Assembly: GCA_937911345.1 (NCBI GenBank)
Contig: CALDPP010000069.1
Coordinates: 1-38,775 of the forward strand
Source: an uncultured euryarchaeote
Lineage (GTDB): Archaea > Thermoplasmatota > Poseidoniia > Poseidoniales > Poseidoniaceae
DNA: 38,775 nt
Direction of reading: 5' to 3'
In this document: piece after piece, positions 1-10,675 of the stretch
How positions within the stretch are numbered: the stretch's first letter is position 1
How the letters are laid out: the number at the start of each line of letters is the position of its first letter
Program-made: the position numbers and the translations under genes
Notes under the pieces: model-generated
Told to the model about the DNA's origin: nothing
Database searches by the model: none
The model's input: only the letters and a program-made list of their open reading frames with translations

Positions 1-2
1 CA

Positions 3-1526
3 TTAACAAATACTGCATGGATATGGACCGTCAATTTACAGTCTGGAGAAACTCAGGATATATTCGCTTGCCACTTTTTTGATCAGCAAGGTGTTCTACA
101 ACTTGGCATGCCGAATGGATACAGTTGTGACATGGCACTAAAGGCCCAAGGCGGTGTCTACATCTTTTCTTCTAGCGGAGAAATTCATTATCATGTAATT
201 AGTGAGAACACCGGTGCACTATTACCACCACAGGCACAATGGGTGGTCCCAAGTCACATCAGTTTCAGGGAAGGTTTCATAGAAGCAACCCAAATATCCG
301 AAGACAGAATGGTATTGACGACAGATAAAACTGTGGCAGTATTTGCGTTAGAGACAACAAAGCAATCTTTGACTGCAGAAATTATGCCGATTGAATTTGA
401 GTATTATTCAGAGGAAATCATAACATCTTCCGACTTTGGACACTCTCCATGGTCTACCCAAGAAATATCAGAAAATGATGGGAATAGTGGATTTCTATTA
501 GTCGGAGAAGCAAATGGGAATATTTCTGGTTGGGAATGGAATGGCACCAAATCAGATACAAATCAATTCACTGAACAAAATAAAATGAACGTCGATGGAT
601 TAGTTGATACCGTTTATCAAGTACAGATAACTGATTTAGACAACTCAGGCTTTACTGATTTATTGATATCCGGTGATGATAAGTCATATTGGCTCCACAC
701 GCATTTGCTCAAGAACCGTTTAACATTTGATGTCGATGACGATTTCTTGGTTGGTGTATTTTCTAATAGTGATTCAGATGATTACTTCTTTGCCGTTTCA
801 CAGGACTCGATTGAAAGTGGTATAATCAATGAAGATATGTATACTTTAGATGGATTACAATTGTATGATATCCCCTTCCTTGTAGGGGTTATCCTTGCTT
901 TGTTACTAATGGTCTTACTTTATTTCCACAGTGAATGGTATGTAGTAAATACTGTGGGTATCTTAGTAGGTGCGGGAGTGATAGTAATGCTTGGCGTTGC
1001 TTTTGTTCCTGGATTGATAATGATTTTCATGATATTAGCTGCAGTCTATGATGCATGGGCTGTTTATCGGTCTAAGCATATGCTGGAACTGGCTGATACG
1101 ATGATTGGACTACAGTTACCAATTTTACTCGTTGCCCCACAAGACAAAGGATACTCATTCAAAGATGAGAAAACCAAGATGGTTGAAAAAAGTGATATTT
1201 CGCCAGTGCCACAAGTTCACAAGACCATGATTCCAGCCAAGAAAAAGAGTAAGGAAGCATTATTCATGGGGCTCGGAGATATCATATTCCCTGGTATGCT
1301 GGTACTCTCTGCAGTTCAATGGCTAGAGACCGACAACTCGTTTGCTATTGCAATGTTCACATTGGCCGGTTCATTACTTGGATATCTAGCATTGATGAGT
1401 TATGTAGCAAGGGGTAAAGCGCAAGCTGGTCTACCATTACTGAATGGAGGGGCAATCTTGGGCTATATCATTGGTGGAATGATTTTTATTGGTACTGAAA
1501 TTTTTAATCTAGGTATCTCATTGTAG
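3..1526 (+). CDS. Presenilin-like (PSH/A22) intramembrane aspartyl protease with FG-GAP-like domain, 5'-partial
   Basis: The reading frame is open from base 3, so the true start lies outside the window; the first ATG in view (108) is internal. Residue numbers here count from that ATG. Both GxGD-protease catalytic motifs are present: YDAWAVY with Asp315 (codon at 1050) and GLGD with Asp391 (codon at 1278). GLPLLNGG at 441-448 is the archaeal form of the presenilin PAL motif. Six hydrophobic segments (about 253-273, 277-300, 302-320, 384-402, 409-433, 441-464) match TM4-TM9 of the family. The TM6-TM7 loop is lysine-rich, hence probably cytoplasmic. About 250 soluble, beta-rich residues precede TM4, including an FG-GAP/VCBS-like loop (DLDNSGFTDLL, 176-186). 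If TM1-TM3 lie upstream, this domain is inserted in the extracytoplasmic TM3-TM4 loop. The inferred role is cleavage of membrane-spanning peptides. serS follows after 8 bases. Family call strong; substrate unknown. Confidence 0.85.
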   Translation, partial: LTNTAWIWTVNLQSGETQDIFACHFFDQQGVLQLGMPNGYSCDMALKAQGGVYIFSSSGEIHYHVISENTGALLPPQAQWVVPSHISFREGFIEATQISEDRMVLTTDKTVAVFALETTKQSLTAEIMPIEFEYYSEEIITSSDFGHSPWSTQEISENDGNSGFLLVGEANGNISGWEWNGTKSDTNQFTEQNKMNVDGLVDTVYQVQITDLDNSGFTDLLISGDDKSYWLHTHLLKNRLTFDVDDDFLVGVFSNSDSDDYFFAVSQDSIESGIINEDMYTLDGLQLYDIPFLVGVILALLLMVLLYFHSEWYVVNTVGILVGAGVIVMLGVAFVPGLIMIFMILAAVYDAWAVYRSKHMLELADTMIGLQLPILLVAPQDKGYSFKDEKTKMVEKSDISPVPQVHKTMIPAKKKSKEALFMGLGDIIFPGMLVLSAVQWLETDNSFAIAMFTLAGSLLGYLALMSYVARGKAQAGLPLLNGGAILGYIIGGMIFIGTEIFNLGISL

Positions 1527-1534
1527 GTGGTTTA

Positions 1535-2827
1535 ATGTTAGATATTCACATGTTTAGAGATAACCACGAGCAAATTCGTGCCGATCATGATAAGCGTGGA
1601 ATTTCACATGAAAGGATAGACCAAGTGATACACTTTGACAACTTATGGCTGAGTTTGCAACATCAAACGAACCAACTAAGGCAAAAAAAGAATACTGCGG
1701 CCAAAGGAATTAGCGAAGCAAAGAAGTCTGGTGATGAAGAGAGAGCTCAAGCGATATTAGCTGAGGTCGCTTCATTGGGTGCTGAGATCTCAAAGTTAGA
1801 AGCAGAAACCCAAGAAGCCATAGAACAAAGGGATCGAATTCGCATGTCAATTCCAAACCTCCTTCATCCTGATGTTCCGCAAGGTGCGGATGAATCTGGT
1901 AACACTGTCCACAGTATCTATGGTAGTAAACCAGAATTTGATTTCGAGCCTCGAACTCATAATGAATTGATTGAGTTGAATAAATGGGTAGATTTGAAGC
2001 GGGCTGCAAAAATCACAGGTAGTAGATTTTTCTTCTTGAAAGGAGATTTGGCAAGATTAGAATTAGCATTACAGACATTTGCTGTTGATTTTATTGGTCA
2101 AAGGGGTTTCACTTTTGTGCAACCTCCAGTAATGATGAATAGGCAAGCGTATGAAGGCGTTACCGACCTCAATGACTTTGAGACCGTGATGTATGGTATA
2201 GAACCTGACAAGTACTACATGATTGCTACTTCTGAGCACCCGCTAACCTCGATGTATATGGGGGAAACAATACCCATTGACATGTTACCACTCAAAATAG
2301 TCGGCGTATCTCCATGTTTCCGAAGAGAAGTTGGTTCGCATGGGCAATCAGACTTAGGGATATGGCGAGTTCATCAGTTTACCAAGATTGAGCAAATAGT
2401 TATCTCTACGCCAGAGCAATCATGGGAGATTCATGAAGAGTTGTTACAAAATTGCATAGATTTGTGGAACGAACTTGGCTTGCATTACGAAGTGGTGAAC
2501 ATATGTACTGGAGACATGGGTACAGTGGCTGCTAGAAAGTATGACTTAGAGGCTTGGTTGCCCGGCGCAGGCCAATACAAGGAAATTGTTTCATGTTCAA
2601 ACTGTACTGACTACCAAGCGAACAGGTTACAGATAAAATATGGACAACCGGGGCACTCAAACCAACCGATTGTTCACACGTTAAATTCAACTGCGGTTGC
2701 GACATCTCGAGCTTTAGTTGCAATAATTGAGCAAAATCAATTACCAGATGGTAGAGTTTCTATTCCAGAACCATTGATTCCATTGATGGGTGGACAAACA
2801 ATTCTAGAACCTTGTTCTTGGGGTTGA
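1535..2827 (+). CDS. serS: Seryl-tRNA synthetase
   Basis: Cytoplasmic class II aminoacyl-tRNA synthetase that charges tRNA-Ser (and tRNA-Sec if present). At 430 residues it has the normal length. The N-terminal tRNA-binding coiled coil covers about residues 30-105, with charged heptads rich in Lys, Glu and Gln. Class II motif 2 is FRREVGS near residue 265, preceded by the serine-site TSEHPL. Motif 3 is the NSTAVATSRALVAIIEQNQ region near the C terminus, followed by IPEPLIP. This is the common bacterial/eukaryotic SerRS, not the rare zinc-dependent methanogen form. The ATG at 1535 follows GGTGG at a short distance and begins at the family's usual MLDI. It lies 8 bases after the protease gene, so the two are probably cotranscribed. 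Its stop codon directly abuts that of the convergent gene at 2828. Confidence 0.97.
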   Translation: MLDIHMFRDNHEQIRADHDKRGISHERIDQVIHFDNLWLSLQHQTNQLRQKKNTAAKGISEAKKSGDEERAQAILAEVASLGAEISKLEAETQEAIEQRDRIRMSIPNLLHPDVPQGADESGNTVHSIYGSKPEFDFEPRTHNELIELNKWVDLKRAAKITGSRFFFLKGDLARLELALQTFAVDFIGQRGFTFVQPPVMMNRQAYEGVTDLNDFETVMYGIEPDKYYMIATSEHPLTSMYMGETIPIDMLPLKIVGVSPCFRREVGSHGQSDLGIWRVHQFTKIEQIVISTPEQSWEIHEELLQNCIDLWNELGLHYEVVNICTGDMGTVAARKYDLEAWLPGAGQYKEIVSCSNCTDYQANRLQIKYGQPGHSNQPIVHTLNSTAVATSRALVAIIEQNQLPDGRVSIPEPLIPLMGGQTILEPCSWG

Positions 2828-5398
2828 TTAGTCAATAAGGCCTGCATTTTCAATTGCAGTGAAGTCTATTTCACCGGGCAATCCAAGGTCAACCGGCATT
2901 CCGCCAATTGTGACAATTACTCCAGTGATGTGGGTATACAGACATGGAGGGAAGTCAGATTCAGTTTTCTTATCAGTCAATAGTTTCCAACCATTACTTG
3001 CCTTTTTCTTGGCTTTAGAAAATAACTCCTCATCACCAAATGCAATCCAGCCATTAGCCTGCCATGCATGCTTTTGCAATTCTTTGGTAACCAATGCCGG
3101 CGCTGGAGCGACAGTGTGGCGATACGGCCATGCGTTTACCCAATCAAGGCCAGAATCTCTCAGCCATTCTATACCAGTTGTCTCGCTACTTGCAGAGATG
3201 GTATGGCCTATTGATTCCAAATGCCTCAATAGGCTTCTCAAGTGTGGATGTCTTGATTTTGTTTGCGCCAGTGTTTTTGCAATGTTTGTAGCAGTTAGAA
3301 TTCTTCCTTCATCCAAGTGTAGCAAAGCACATACAACATTACCATGAACCCAATCACCTAGTGAATTCTTTTTCATGTAACGTTCTAACAGATTCAAACC
3401 CTCTTCATATCTTCCAGATAACCTCAGTCTTGCAATGTCACCCAAGAGAATTAACCTGTCAGATGGTTCATTTCTGTAGGATATTTCTGTGGTTGCATTT
3501 CCTTGATTAAAGCGCTTAATCAAATCGATATTACGTTTTGTTAACGGATCAACAGACAACAGGGATTTCAATTTCTCGTCCAATTTTCGCTTTTTTGGCT
3601 GTAATACTGAAGCATACCACTGTAATCTAGCGGCTTCGATATCGTCGTCAGGTAGTAATGCTAATCGGGGTTTTGCTTCGGCATAATCTCGCTGGCTTAG
3701 GCTAGCAGCAACTAGAATCAATCGAGCAATCTGTGCTTCTCTGCCACCTCTTAATGCAAGGATAGAAACAGCATTGTTTTCAGCATCATCCCATCTGCCC
3801 ATTGCGGCAAATATTTCCATCATGGCATCGGTTTTTCTTACTAAATCTAGACCTTCTAATTGTTCTCCATGTCCTTCAATCACTGCATCAATACGTTTCA
3901 GTGCCTTGTCCCAAGAATCATCAGTAATCAATTTTCTAATCGCTTTTTGTTTGAGGTAAATTACATCTTCTAATTGAGACATTCTAGCCCGATTCTCACC
4001 CATTGATGCATCGAACGAGATGTCTTCGAGACGCGAACCTATTTTTCTAGATCTCGCCCAAATAACCACAAATGCGACTTGACCACCTGAAGAAAGCATC
4101 CACGTCAACTCTTCTAACGCATCTTTCTGGATAATCATACAGAGATTGTTTTCCCAAGTACCACATGCTGCTCCTTGGGGTAAGAAACTAGAGTCCCAAA
4201 ATGTAATCATCGCTAATGCCAGCAATAGCATCGACTGTCCGGCAAAACCAGTGAAGCAGAAATTCAAAACCTTGGCTTGTTGACTTCTTTCTGCCCTCAA
4301 TAGGCGGCTATCTGCTAGTGTTATTCCACCTTTGCCAGAAACATCTTGTACATCCAAGAATAATATTCTAGCAACTTCATAGACAAATAAGAAACCAATC
4401 AGTGCGACGTTGAGTAGTAAAAATAGTAACACCATGTTCACAAGAGGTACTCTGATTCCTTCTGCTGGGATGAATGAGAATAATTCAATTAAAGCAAATC
4501 CAAGGATTCCTCCTTCCTCCATTATTGAAGATTGTACTCGATACTCTGGCAATTCAAGAACTCTATCTGAGTGAGTGAACATATTTGGGTCAATTGCTAA
4601 GGCTAGAATTGAAATGATTGTATTAATTGCAATAAATGGCATCACTGAAAGGTTGATATTGACTATTTGGGCAATAGCTTGTTGTTTCGGACTTGGTTTA
4701 TGGTTGTGGAATGGTGATGGTTGTCCACTGGCGATTTTTACCGAGGATTGCTTCAATGCTTGCCAAGATGACCCAAGCACCCTGCCATAGGCCAACACAG
4801 CCGGAGAAAAAGCAATGAAGGCACATATACTGAATACCCTAAAAGATGGGACGTCTATCGAGGTAAGAATTACCGCAATGACTCCAACCAATATCATCCA
4901 ACTCAATGTCAAAACGACGTAAGAATAACTCTGCCAAATGTCAGAATTTTGTAATGTTGCTTTTCCTGCACCAACTGGTTTCACTACTTGCGCACCTAGT
5001 GATGAGCCGCTAGATATTACCGCAGGAATCGCAACAAAAAACAGTGCGATAATGATTGATCCAGCATGATATCCCTCTGAAAAGTTGTATTTCGTCATTA
5101 AGAATTCGAACACCAAAATTAGTACTCCGGTAAGTGCGAACAGGTAACTTGTTACCCCAAAACGCATTCCTTTTGTTTGCAATAGGTTTCTAGCATCTTC
5201 TACTGAACGAGTCACATTGTGAACCTCGTAACGCTTTTCTCCGGTTTGAAAAGCCACCTGTAGACCTCTTAATTGACGTGGAACAACACTGTTCCAAAAC
5301 AGATATGCGGTTAATGCTGCAAAGAAAAAAGGAATTATTGCCGCAAGTCCAAAACCATCAATAATTGGCGGTGCTGAAATTTCAAAGCCTCCTTTCAA
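2828..5398 (-). CDS. Polytopic membrane protein with C-terminal TPR-like region, function unknown
   Basis: I do not recognise the family. The 856-residue product has about nine or ten hydrophobic segments in residues 12-450 (for example 12-37, 77-100, 111-137, 156-182, 186-209, 247-270, 298-350, 380-405, 435-450). From about 480 to 760 it is soluble and alpha-helical, with Ala/Leu/Arg-rich helical pairs that resemble TPR or SEL1-type repeats (for example DDAENNAVSILALRGG and RYEEGLNLLERYMKK). The start is a TTG whose bases overlap the thrS stop (TTGA), which implies translational coupling to thrS; the next in-frame ATG would remove TM1. The overall layout, a membrane domain plus a helical repeat domain, suggests a scaffold or transport-assembly role, but this is inference. 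Its stop codon abuts that of serS with no intergenic base. Confidence 0.85.
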   Translation of the reverse strand: MKGGFEISAPPIIDGFGLAAIIPFFFAALTAYLFWNSVVPRQLRGLQVAFQTGEKRYEVHNVTRSVEDARNLLQTKGMRFGVTSYLFALTGVLILVFEFLMTKYNFSEGYHAGSIIIALFFVAIPAVISSGSSLGAQVVKPVGAGKATLQNSDIWQSYSYVVLTLSWMILVGVIAVILTSIDVPSFRVFSICAFIAFSPAVLAYGRVLGSSWQALKQSSVKIASGQPSPFHNHKPSPKQQAIAQIVNINLSVMPFIAINTIISILALAIDPNMFTHSDRVLELPEYRVQSSIMEEGGILGFALIELFSFIPAEGIRVPLVNMVLLFLLLNVALIGFLFVYEVARILFLDVQDVSGKGGITLADSRLLRAERSQQAKVLNFCFTGFAGQSMLLLALAMITFWDSSFLPQGAACGTWENNLCMIIQKDALEELTWMLSSGGQVAFVVIWARSRKIGSRLEDISFDASMGENRARMSQLEDVIYLKQKAIRKLITDDSWDKALKRIDAVIEGHGEQLEGLDLVRKTDAMMEIFAAMGRWDDAENNAVSILALRGGREAQIARLILVAASLSQRDYAEAKPRLALLPDDDIEAARLQWYASVLQPKKRKLDEKLKSLLSVDPLTKRNIDLIKRFNQGNATTEISYRNEPSDRLILLGDIARLRLSGRYEEGLNLLERYMKKNSLGDWVHGNVVCALLHLDEGRILTATNIAKTLAQTKSRHPHLRSLLRHLESIGHTISASSETTGIEWLRDSGLDWVNAWPYRHTVAPAPALVTKELQKHAWQANGWIAFGDEELFSKAKKKASNGWKLLTDKKTESDFPPCLYTHITGVIVTIGGMPVDLGLPGEIDFTAIENAGLID

Positions 5399-7579: not shown

Positions 7580-10500
7580 ATGGGAAAAACCAAGAGATTG
7601 GGTTGTCTTGTTCTTTTGTTACTCTTGACACCATTATTCTCGTCACTCGCTACTGCTGATAGCCCGCCAGGGCAACCACAAATAAACGCAAATTGGGTCG
7701 CGGATGAGTTCGGTGAAACCATGCACGCATATCGGGTCTTGTTTGCTGACGGTGAATCTTACCAGGCACTAGTTGATATTGAGCATGATAGGGGTGGAGA
7801 GATTTTAGCAACTGAGATATTCCAATCTTGGGATTTGATTGATGGACTCAGAGTTTTGGATATACAACTCAATACGAGTCTAGAATGGGGCGACATTGTT
7901 TCAGTTGCGATAACCATTACACACTATGCAGGGCAAGAACTAGTTGATTCAATAGAAGTCGAACGGAATTTTGAAATTGGTACATGGAATCAACCAATGG
8001 ATGATCATGAAATTATGCTTGAGACAACTTGGGATTTGGATCAAACATTCAACAACTCATATGGCTCACAAGGTTTCGAACTTGACTTCATCGGACAAGG
8101 ATGGCAACAAAGGATAGGTAATACTGTTGAATCTTGGGAGTTGGGTAATGGGAGTGTGCTGTTTATCGAATCAACCGATGTTGGTAGTAACAACTTATCC
8201 CTTGACCTGCAGTCGATTTGGAAGAATGAGACAATAGAAAACGGTATACTTACTTCCCAGGTGTTTGAAGCAATTGGTTCTGGTACCCTACACGTAATTG
8301 CTATTGAGGACGACCTATCCACTTCTATCTTAGTCGACGTGACTAATGCTGAATTAAACCGTTCGAACATTAATCAAGTCATTTCGGAGCGTCTCAAAAT
8401 AGATGCTAATGGCATGTTAAACATAACCACAGAAGGGGATGAAAATTCGTCTACAACAGTAGATGGCGATATTGGCGTTTTTTATCTTGAAACCTGGGAT
8501 GAAAATGGTGTTAGACGATTCTATGACCAAAGGTTTGAGGCGATAGCCCAAATGGTAGTTATTGACGAAGGTACAAGACTGGATATCAATCTAAACACCC
8601 TGAATTCCGAAGAGACTTGGGTAGAAGGTGTACGAACAAACCAACTCGAAGAGTTGCTTGGTTCGGGAACATTTGGCTTCTCAGAGAGTGATAACGAATC
8701 CTCGGTGACGATAAACGGAACGATATATCAATTTCATACTAAAACCGAACAAGGCATAACAATGGTCGATGAAGTCCATATTGATGGTGACATATCAGGA
8801 GATGTGCAAGGAGATTTTGGTGTAGTTAGGGGAATTGAACTTACCGGTACACAGGCAAATGCAACAGGTATTGAGTTTCCTGTTAATGTAATTCACGAAG
8901 AGTCTTGGTTTAATCTAACTGGGATAAATGGTGGTAACTTCTTCGATGGTGCTGGAATTGGAGCTACACATAATCAAACATGGGATTACCAAGTGATTTA
9001 CTCTGATTGGGAAAACCGGACAGTTCGCTTAGTATGGGAAGAAACGGGAGCAGATGCCTCCAGTGGAGAAGAATACCCTGAGCGCAGTCCAATTGAAAGA
9101 ACAGCAGAGCCGCCAGAATATGAAGAAGCGTTGGGTAATCTGACAATCAGCAGAGAGACTGGTTTGATGCCGATACCAATGCATCCAGGCGACACAATAA
9201 GACTCGATGGACAAGAAGGTCTTACTTTGGTTGTTACCGCAGAAACCTTAGCAAACGACCCAAGAGACGGCCATAATTTCCATGTTGTAACATGGTCGGG
9301 AGTCTATGAAGGGAATGAAGCAGGAACAGCAATGGGAGCAATCATTGACGAGGGGCCATTGAAAGGTTTAATTTCCAGTGTGTCAAGAGTCCTGTCAATT
9401 CCATTTGGTGAAGATGGTTACCTTGCTAACTTTACTGAGACCCAACTTTTGACTAGAGTGATTTCACCCTCGGTAGTAACTGCTGAGGAAAATTCAGCAC
9501 CAGTAATATCCAGTTTAACATTGCTAGAAGGCTTGGTTGTTTCCGAGGGTGGAAGTGTTGCAACCTTAATTGCAGATGTTAGCGATGTCGATTGGAATTT
9601 AGAGCAAGTCACTGTTGACTTGACTCCCATCGGTGGCGGTATAGTAGAGATGAATGATCGTGGCCTAGATGGTGATGCAGCAATTGGTGATGACAAATTC
9701 TCTACTCGTATTGTTGTTCCTGGATTACAAGTCGGTAATGCAACTTTAGATATTGAAGCTAGAGACTCGTTTGATGTAGTTACCACATCGTCAGGTCAGA
9801 TTGTTGTGGCTAATCAAGCACCGAGATTAGTTGGAGCTGAGATACTTCCAGATGAAGGTCCAAGAGGCACTAATATGGTGATTAATTTAGAGGCTTATGA
9901 TGGTCACGGAGTTGCCAACATCAGTCTTGATTTGCGAGAATATGGTGGTGAACTTCTTGAGTTAACGGAAGATTCAGGAACATGGACAATAATGATGACA
10001 GTGCCTGAAGGAATGTCTCCAGGGGTTCAAGATTTGAGATTCGTAACAGTAGATGGTTTAGGCAAAGTAGGTGTGACTAATCTATGGCTGAATGGTGAGC
10101 GGGATGAATTCCATGCATATGGACCACATTTCATACCCGATGATGAAGTAATTCCAATTTCGATAACTGTGGAGAATTCAGCGCCGACGTTTACTTTACC
10201 GGATTCAGTAGTTTTTGCTAGGCAAGATGTGTCGACAACGGTTGTTTTTGAAGTAGAAATATTTGATTCAGACGGGATTACTAATGCTAGAGCAAATCTA
10301 GGAGTATTTGCCCCATTAGGGGCACAAACGGGTTGGGTCACAATGAATGATAACGGTATCAATGGCGATGAAGTCCCCGGTGATGGAATCTATTCTGTAG
10401 AATTGTCTTTACGCACCAGCACCCCTATTGGCACACATGAAATACAAATTCAAGCTATTGACAGTTTTGATGTTGCAACTCCTATCACTCCAGTTTCAAT

Positions 10501-10675
10501 AGTTGTTCAAGAAGAGACAAGTATCCTGCCAAGTTTGGATAGCGATTCGATTTCAACCACAGTTTTGGTCGTGATTTTGATTGGATTCACCGCTGTAGCA
10601 GCGATTTCAGTATTCTTTTTGATGCGAAAAGGCAAGGATAAGGAATACCTCGAGGATAGGTTTGGATTTGAATAG
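7580..10675 (+). CDS. Secreted, membrane-anchored surface protein with Ig-like repeats
   Basis: A 1031-residue product with a clear signal peptide (positive MGKTKR, hydrophobic core LVLLLLLTP, small residues to about 26). A single C-terminal transmembrane helix (about 996-1018) is followed by a short charged cytoplasmic tail. The protein is therefore exported and anchored at its C terminus. Residues about 30-620 are beta-rich, acidic and full of N-x-S/T sequons, fitting a glycosylated archaeal surface protein. The last third holds three Ig/cadherin-like domains. Two carry near-duplicate modules, MNDRGLDGD near 690 and MNDNGINGD near 921, each followed by a GD-rich turn and a DSFDV strand; this resembles the choice-of-anchor-X type domain. 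Ligand and role are unknown: S-layer component, adhesin or polymer-binding protein are all possible. It stands alone, divergent from thrS. Confidence 0.88.
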   Translation: MGKTKRLGCLVLLLLLTPLFSSLATADSPPGQPQINANWVADEFGETMHAYRVLFADGESYQALVDIEHDRGGEILATEIFQSWDLIDGLRVLDIQLNTSLEWGDIVSVAITITHYAGQELVDSIEVERNFEIGTWNQPMDDHEIMLETTWDLDQTFNNSYGSQGFELDFIGQGWQQRIGNTVESWELGNGSVLFIESTDVGSNNLSLDLQSIWKNETIENGILTSQVFEAIGSGTLHVIAIEDDLSTSILVDVTNAELNRSNINQVISERLKIDANGMLNITTEGDENSSTTVDGDIGVFYLETWDENGVRRFYDQRFEAIAQMVVIDEGTRLDINLNTLNSEETWVEGVRTNQLEELLGSGTFGFSESDNESSVTINGTIYQFHTKTEQGITMVDEVHIDGDISGDVQGDFGVVRGIELTGTQANATGIEFPVNVIHEESWFNLTGINGGNFFDGAGIGATHNQTWDYQVIYSDWENRTVRLVWEETGADASSGEEYPERSPIERTAEPPEYEEALGNLTISRETGLMPIPMHPGDTIRLDGQEGLTLVVTAETLANDPRDGHNFHVVTWSGVYEGNEAGTAMGAIIDEGPLKGLISSVSRVLSIPFGEDGYLANFTETQLLTRVISPSVVTAEENSAPVISSLTLLEGLVVSEGGSVATLIADVSDVDWNLEQVTVDLTPIGGGIVEMNDRGLDGDAAIGDDKFSTRIVVPGLQVGNATLDIEARDSFDVVTTSSGQIVVANQAPRLVGAEILPDEGPRGTNMVINLEAYDGHGVANISLDLREYGGELLELTEDSGTWTIMMTVPEGMSPGVQDLRFVTVDGLGKVGVTNLWLNGERDEFHAYGPHFIPDDEVIPISITVENSAPTFTLPDSVVFARQDVSTTVVFEVEIFDSDGITNARANLGVFAPLGAQTGWVTMNDNGINGDEVPGDGIYSVELSLRTSTPIGTHEIQIQAIDSFDVATPITPVSIVVQEETSILPSLDSDSISTTVLVVILIGFTAVAAISVFFLMRKGKDKEYLEDRFGFE

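Follow-up and report, generated by a model that had tools for sequence, protein, structure and literature searches.

The archaeal presenilin homologue (PSH) MCMJR1, crystallized as 4HYC, is a 301-aa chain with a nine-helix GxGD core, YD and GxGD aspartates, a PxL motif and a short link between transmembrane helices 3 and 4 (TM3-TM4), and it works without the partner subunits of gamma-secretase (PMC2947513). In gamma-secretase (presenilin, nicastrin, APH-1 and PEN-2), the large outside domain associated with the presenilin-type core belongs to a separate subunit, nicastrin, which acts as the size gate of the complex (PMC6551803, PMC7248309). SPPL2 is likewise an A22 intramembrane aspartyl protease with a luminal/extracellular PA domain that affects substrate choice (PMC12043953), whereas in RseP, a site-2 metalloprotease of another fold, it is inserted PDZ domains that form a size filter (PMC7728848). 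The protein described here shares the MCMJR1 core and motifs and matches its sequence over TM4-TM9 and, when the upstream contig is used, over TM1-TM3; however, it carries 370 residues where MCMJR1 has a short link and no ectodomain. It resembles gamma-secretase in its core, in a large domain associated with the protease on the outside and in its predicted orientation, with a cytosolic N terminus and an outside C terminus, but the propeller-like domain, a putative gate, resides within the protease chain. The nicastrin fold is unrelated to the beta-propeller. The SPPL2 PA domain precedes TM1 in the inverted topology of SPP/SPPL proteins, whereas the archaeal domain lies between TM3 and TM4, an arrangement closer to that of RseP-type proteases in that an outside domain interrupts the transmembrane segments, albeit as a propeller rather than a PDZ domain.

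The window, that is, the whole 38,775-nt stretch of DNA analysed here, is contig C69 of the 1.88-Mb draft genome, in 219 contigs, of a marine archaeon. Its positions 3-1526 (+) hold a 507-codon frame that is open at the 5' end and closed by a stop at the 3' end, and which constitutes the 3' part of a gene crossing the left edge of the window. The last ~215 residues of this frame are homologous to presenilin, as revealed by matches of residues 291-494 to PF06550 (E 8.5e-47, 160 bits against a cut-off of 23.9), of residues 293-491 to NCBIfam NF041679 'PSH' (E 5.8e-57, 193.3 bits against a cut-off of 125) and of residues 297-494 to the 4HYC sequence (E 4.6e-30). Profile matches and hydropathy also recovered the elements listed in the initial annotation, namely the YD motif in TM6 (VYDAW, catalytic Asp D567), the GLGD motif in TM7 (FMGLGD, catalytic Asp D643) and, before TM9, a PAL-type motif that reads PLL (GLPLLNGG), all of them carried in six C-terminal helices equivalent to TM4-TM9. 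TM1-TM3 were assigned by model match and TM4-TM9 by hydropathy and alignment, which gives nine transmembrane helices, and the sequence match over the whole family lies above the curated cut-off. By its sequence, the protein is thus a nine-helix PSH of the GxGD type (peptidase family A22) with predicted proteolytic activity, and as a protease it is an ordinary representative of a known family.

The remainder of the gene was found in the same genome, at the end of contig C104, which overlaps the start of the window (Table 1). Joined to the window frame, the C104 sequence is in phase and free of stops from an ATG at L003:15431, yielding a protein of 724 aa. Its upstream piece matches positions 2-88 of NF041679 (E 2.1e-8) and thus provides TM1-TM3, so that the joined protein comprises TM1-TM3, a 370-aa insert and TM4-TM9 with YD, GLGD and PLL. 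That TM1-TM3 might lie beyond the window edge had been anticipated from the window sequence; indeed, neither an upstream stop nor a start just before base 3 was encountered, and the frame continues through these helices both on C104 and on the contigs of relatives. A chimeric contig join or a misread frame could be invoked because the window begins inside the gene and the join depends on a 55-bp overlap. However, the joined ORF has no stops, at least six relatives from public genomes (Ca. Poseidoniaceae and further Poseidoniales, marine group II) carry the whole gene on single uninterrupted contigs, and in several of them the genes on the two sides of the join follow one another in the same order (helicase, 349-aa protein, dCMP deaminase, Mur-ligase/FolC-like protein, PSH and SerRS), which renders such an artefact extremely improbable. 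One relative, L034, shares 88% identity with the part of the protein that the window encodes, and six other aligned relatives are 69-77% identical to L034.

Synteny locates the PSH gene among housekeeping genes, with no obvious substrate gene adjoining it. The 349-aa protein conserved in this neighbourhood is a lipoprotein-like ORF with a long PE repeat (L003:12481-13530, -), and a site-2-type metalloprotease-like ORF (HEFGH; L003:4959-6416, +) lies ~9 kb upstream of the PSH gene. On the window side, an 856-aa polytopic protein with no Pfam match (2828-5398, -) adjoins SerRS in several relatives. Farther downstream, positions 7580-10675 (+) encode a 1031-aa protein, also with no Pfam match, that exhibits a signal-like start, beta-type repeats discernible by eye and a C-terminal membrane helix; it is possibly a surface protein and a possible kind of type I substrate.

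Alignment with insert-less homologues delimited the insert to residues 135-504 of 724, between TM3 (...ALMYTTVPLMHVLVID) and TM4 (YDIPFLVGV...), and the NF041679 match of inserted proteins splits at this same place, near positions 88/94. The roughly 280 residues originally noted ahead of TM4 correspond to the 287 that the window encodes, which are the C-terminal part of the insert. To place the domain with respect to the membrane, we considered the distribution of charges in Poseidoniaceae. Lys and Arg occur mainly in the N-terminal region and in the TM2-TM3, TM6-TM7 and TM8-TM9 loops (on average 2.7, 10.6 and 1.6 per loop, respectively), with means of 0 in both the TM7-TM8 loop and the C terminus, and the insert averages 65 Asp/Glu versus 12.6 Lys/Arg. 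This positive-inside distribution and the strongly acidic insert argue for the presenilin orientation (N-in/C-out) with the insert outside. In addition, every MGII insert contains two or more Cys, the core being mostly devoid of them, and the C125 column of the insert alignment (A2) is invariant across 27 inserts; this Cys pair fits a disulfide and, weakly, an outside location. An extracytoplasmic position of the insert, as proposed in the initial annotation, is therefore supported by the charge distribution and, to a lesser extent, by the Cys pair.

The fold of the insert was approached with sequence profiles and structure models. Among known propellers, those of the FG-GAP, BBS7 and PQQ types come closest to the insert, by weak sequence matches, and Foldseek also matched it to propellers; no Pfam propeller model matched the inserts at its curated cut-off. 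FG-GAP_3 was weakly matched by seven of the 27 MGII inserts (best E 0.049) and the BBS7 propeller by three of them, and the insert of L070, from another class, matched BBS7 at 1.3e-4 and FG-GAP_3 at 0.0024 (18.9 bits versus a cut-off of 26.9). Compared with the PDB, the MGII insert profile best matched designed propellers and, far more weakly, a quinoprotein propeller and Vps18; the E-values to the designed 'Cake' propellers are inflated by the summing of identical repeats and inform solely on the kind of fold. These matches to designed propellers map onto the most conserved patch of the insert (A2 positions 245-277). Profile self-alignment of the insert uncovered no significant internal repeats.

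An AF2 model of the insert alone (10 sequences, mean pLDDT 57) was nearly all beta over residues 25-222, mostly at pLDDT 55-91, and the remaining half or so was of low confidence. The full-length model (seven sequences, mean pLDDT 41) was used solely for its beta segment. A Foldseek search of the PDB with the insert-only model returned propellers as its best hits (EMC1, BamB, Utp proteins, WD40 proteins, Atg18 and DDB1), with E of about 1e-5 to 1e-4, a probability of about 1.00 and TM-scores of only ~0.3, the latter because half of the model is unreliable; the full-length model gave the same kind of match. On these models, the insert is probably beta-propeller-like and only loosely FG-GAP-like, the matches leaving its family beyond propeller unassigned. 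The FG-GAP-like domain of the initial annotation thus stands, roughly, as a beta-propeller, but is not assignable to the FG-GAP repeat family (PF01839/PF13517), for which nothing rose above the Pfam gathering score. That this region is a folded domain is in turn backed by its all-beta half modelled at fair confidence, the propeller matches and a dN/dS of about 0.04.

Table 1. Coordinates of the PSH gene, its insert and its flanks; positions are those of the window unless another record is named.
Feature	Position	Strand	Basis
Overlap with the end of contig C104 (L003:16080-16134), 55 identical bp	1..55	.	Contig of the same genome; carries TM1-TM3
N-terminal part of the insert, residues 135-217	L003:15833-16081, contig C104		Joined ORF
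C-terminal 287 residues of the insert (218-504 of 724)	3..863	+	Insert-less alignment, joined ORF, A2 profile match 84-374
Two Cys codons (69-71 and 126-128; C240 and C259), possible disulfide	69..128	+	Cys conservation
Most conserved patch of the insert, DFGHSPWS ... LVGEANGNISGWEW, FG-GAP/propeller-blade-like	435..539	+	Alignment A2
Blade-like motif of the insert, TDLDNSGFTDLLI	630..668	+	Alignment A2; by eye like D-x-D-x-D/N-G of FG-GAP blades
TM4, TM5 and TM6 of the PSH core, with YD catalytic Asp D567 (1050-1052)	870..1064	+	PF06550, NF041679 and 4HYC matches, hydropathy
TM6-TM7 loop, predicted cytosolic, Lys-rich	1065..1262	+	Positive-inside count
TM7-TM9, with GLGD Asp D643 (1278-1280), PLL (1434-1442) and predicted extracytoplasmic C terminus; stop 1524-1526	1263..1523	+	Profile matches, charge count
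Seryl-tRNA synthetase, conserved 3' neighbour anchoring orthology, outside the mechanism	1535..2827	+	Pfam, synteny

We surveyed the distribution of the insert in the class of the window and then in the phylum Thermoplasmatota. In the family of the window (f1, Poseidoniales), genomes with the whole gene carry the long form, of about 680-900 aa. The sister family f2 is mixed, with the insert in genera g5, g7, g9 and g21 and insert-less proteins in g2, g3, g4, g6, g8, g19 and g20, and the sister order f3, which we take to be MGIII, lacks it (about 283-337 aa). Most families of the phylum have proteins of about 280-400 aa, i.e., without the insert. Nevertheless, the insert occurs in two further classes, one represented by genomes G144, G134 and G152, and the other by G163, with complete PSH genes of 595-749 aa in the latter. 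Insert lengths across lineages range from 226 to 405 aa. Free-standing copies of the MGII insert were absent outside PSH genes in the genome of the window and in 40 related genomes, insert-less ones included, so nothing indicates that the domain was relocated to a gene of its own. No PSH relatives were found in viral contigs.

The survey also yielded some variants of the core and of the locus. In L044, L045 and L133 (MGIIb genus g8), the place between TM3 and TM4 that holds the propeller in other MGII proteins is taken by ~55 residues, which include two additional hydrophobic segments and perhaps form an extra membrane hairpin. In G061:C38:855-1673 and G110:C115:5786-6532, the PF06550 match breaks once more, at about position 194, which suggests additional residues in the cytosolic loop between TM6 and TM7. 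The PSH neighbourhood in the class of G163 differs from that of MGII; in L103, L106 and L107 of this class, the gene lies beside ORFs that by eye resemble HMG-CoA reductase and a small conserved kinase-like protein.

The history of the insert was traced on trees of the core, built with the insert columns removed. The presence or absence of the insert changed state twice on a quick tree (94 rows) and three times on a careful one (63 rows), versus about 21-31 changes with shuffled labels; the quick tree has long branches, and the three changes of the cleaner, careful tree are preferred. Insert-less MGIIb proteins form one clade (100/100) within an MGIIb group that also holds inserted members (98/97). 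The insert-less orthologues L152, L154 and L156 sit at the same locus, beside FolC and SerRS, so that the insert was lost in place. As the loss in MGIIb left the catalytic motifs intact, the insert is not needed for catalysis as such. In AU tests, a clade of the inserted proteins alone was rejected (p-AU 4.5e-5), whereas one of all inserted plus insert-less MGIIb proteins was not rejected (p 0.34). One early gain followed by at least one in-place loss fits the core tree best and is the simplest reading. The competing view is that different beta domains entered one permissive loop independently on several occasions and have lineage-specific roles, in which case a single gained propeller would not hold outside MGII. 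It is compatible with any mechanism and gains from the variable insert lengths, from a deep clade supported at merely 90/90 with two insert-less rows (L111 and L113) inside, and from hhalign, which relates the inserts of the two MGII families to each other (99.1%) but found nothing significant when the MGII insert was compared with the inserts of the other classes; indeed, profile-profile comparison between insert classes was significant only for L069 with L071, which belong to one class. Against it, the insertion site is identical in every case, the L070 insert also matches propellers, and the single clade, insert-less MGIIb included, is not rejected in the AU test. We regard repeated insertion as a serious but minority possibility.

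Irrespective of origin, the insert is maintained by purifying selection yet diverges faster than the core. Relative to L034, dN and dN/dS are 0.094 and 0.042 for the insert and 0.031 and 0.024 for the core, the ratios being rough because dS is high. Between the two MGII families, identity amounts to 13-15% in the insert versus 52-55% in the core (14% and 52% against L048), and only four columns are invariant in the 27-insert alignment.

By analogy with nicastrin, the RseP PDZ domains and the SPPL2 PA domains, we propose, with a probability of about 0.5, that the propeller is an in-cis ectodomain gate and receptor restricting which N-out substrates with short ectodomains reach the active site. 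The domain would sit over the outer face of the protease, admit N-out (type I) stubs in the membrane whose outer parts are short or already trimmed, for instance those of shed surface proteins, and shut out intact surface proteins. An outside event, either shedding or ligand binding, would thereby be coupled to cleavage within the membrane. An outside domain tethered to TM3 and TM4 on an N-in/C-out fold would be well placed to control the entry of N-out substrates. With so little of its sequence conserved, the insert is more readily understood as a steric or lineage-tuned gate than as a fixed ligand pocket, although its variability is still compatible with a sensor or a docking role.

Alternatively, the propeller could bind a soluble ligand (a peptide, glycan or metal) and work as an allosteric on/off switch via TM3/TM4 rather than by selecting size or shape. 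The two tethers do connect straight to TM3 and TM4 in the catalytic bundle, and the conserved patch (DFGHSPWS, GEENG) is partly common to both MGII families; but the insert being the fastest-changing part of the protein is unusual for a fixed ligand pocket, and the gene clusters at the PSH locus suggest no ligand pathway, and we hold such a sensor to be unlikely. We give a similarly low chance to the propeller tethering the protease to a surface complex (translocon, signal peptidase or surface layer) with no direct action on substrates. Propellers commonly serve as docking platforms, and the closest Foldseek folds include those of EMC1 and BamB, both components of machines that insert membrane proteins; however, similarity of this degree is seen between propeller folds in general, so that their ranking has no functional weight, and surface conservation is low.

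The architecture appears to be new and occurs in several Thermoplasmatota lineages. The initial annotation knew of no characterised member with this layout, and the literature searched, with most subscription papers outside its coverage, agrees in that no archaeal presenilin with an inserted ectodomain was found in it. Tentatively, and at somewhat less than even odds, the presenilins of several Thermoplasmatota lineages would have acquired a built-in extracytoplasmic propeller doing the substrate gating or reception of nicastrin, which MGIIb later lost in place. Should this be true, gated and ungated orthologues would be available at the same locus, allowing a direct test. It has long been asked how intramembrane proteases select their substrates and for what reason presenilin depends on a bulky partner on the outside. 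Here, a presenilin has an outer domain of its own in some lineages and lacks it in close relatives, at the same locus and with intact catalytic motifs, and such pairs offer a simple one-protein system to ask whether presenilin owes its size limit or its specificity to an ectodomain. Our analysis suggests that one presenilin chain can by itself provide the substrate gating for which human gamma-secretase relies on a separate subunit.
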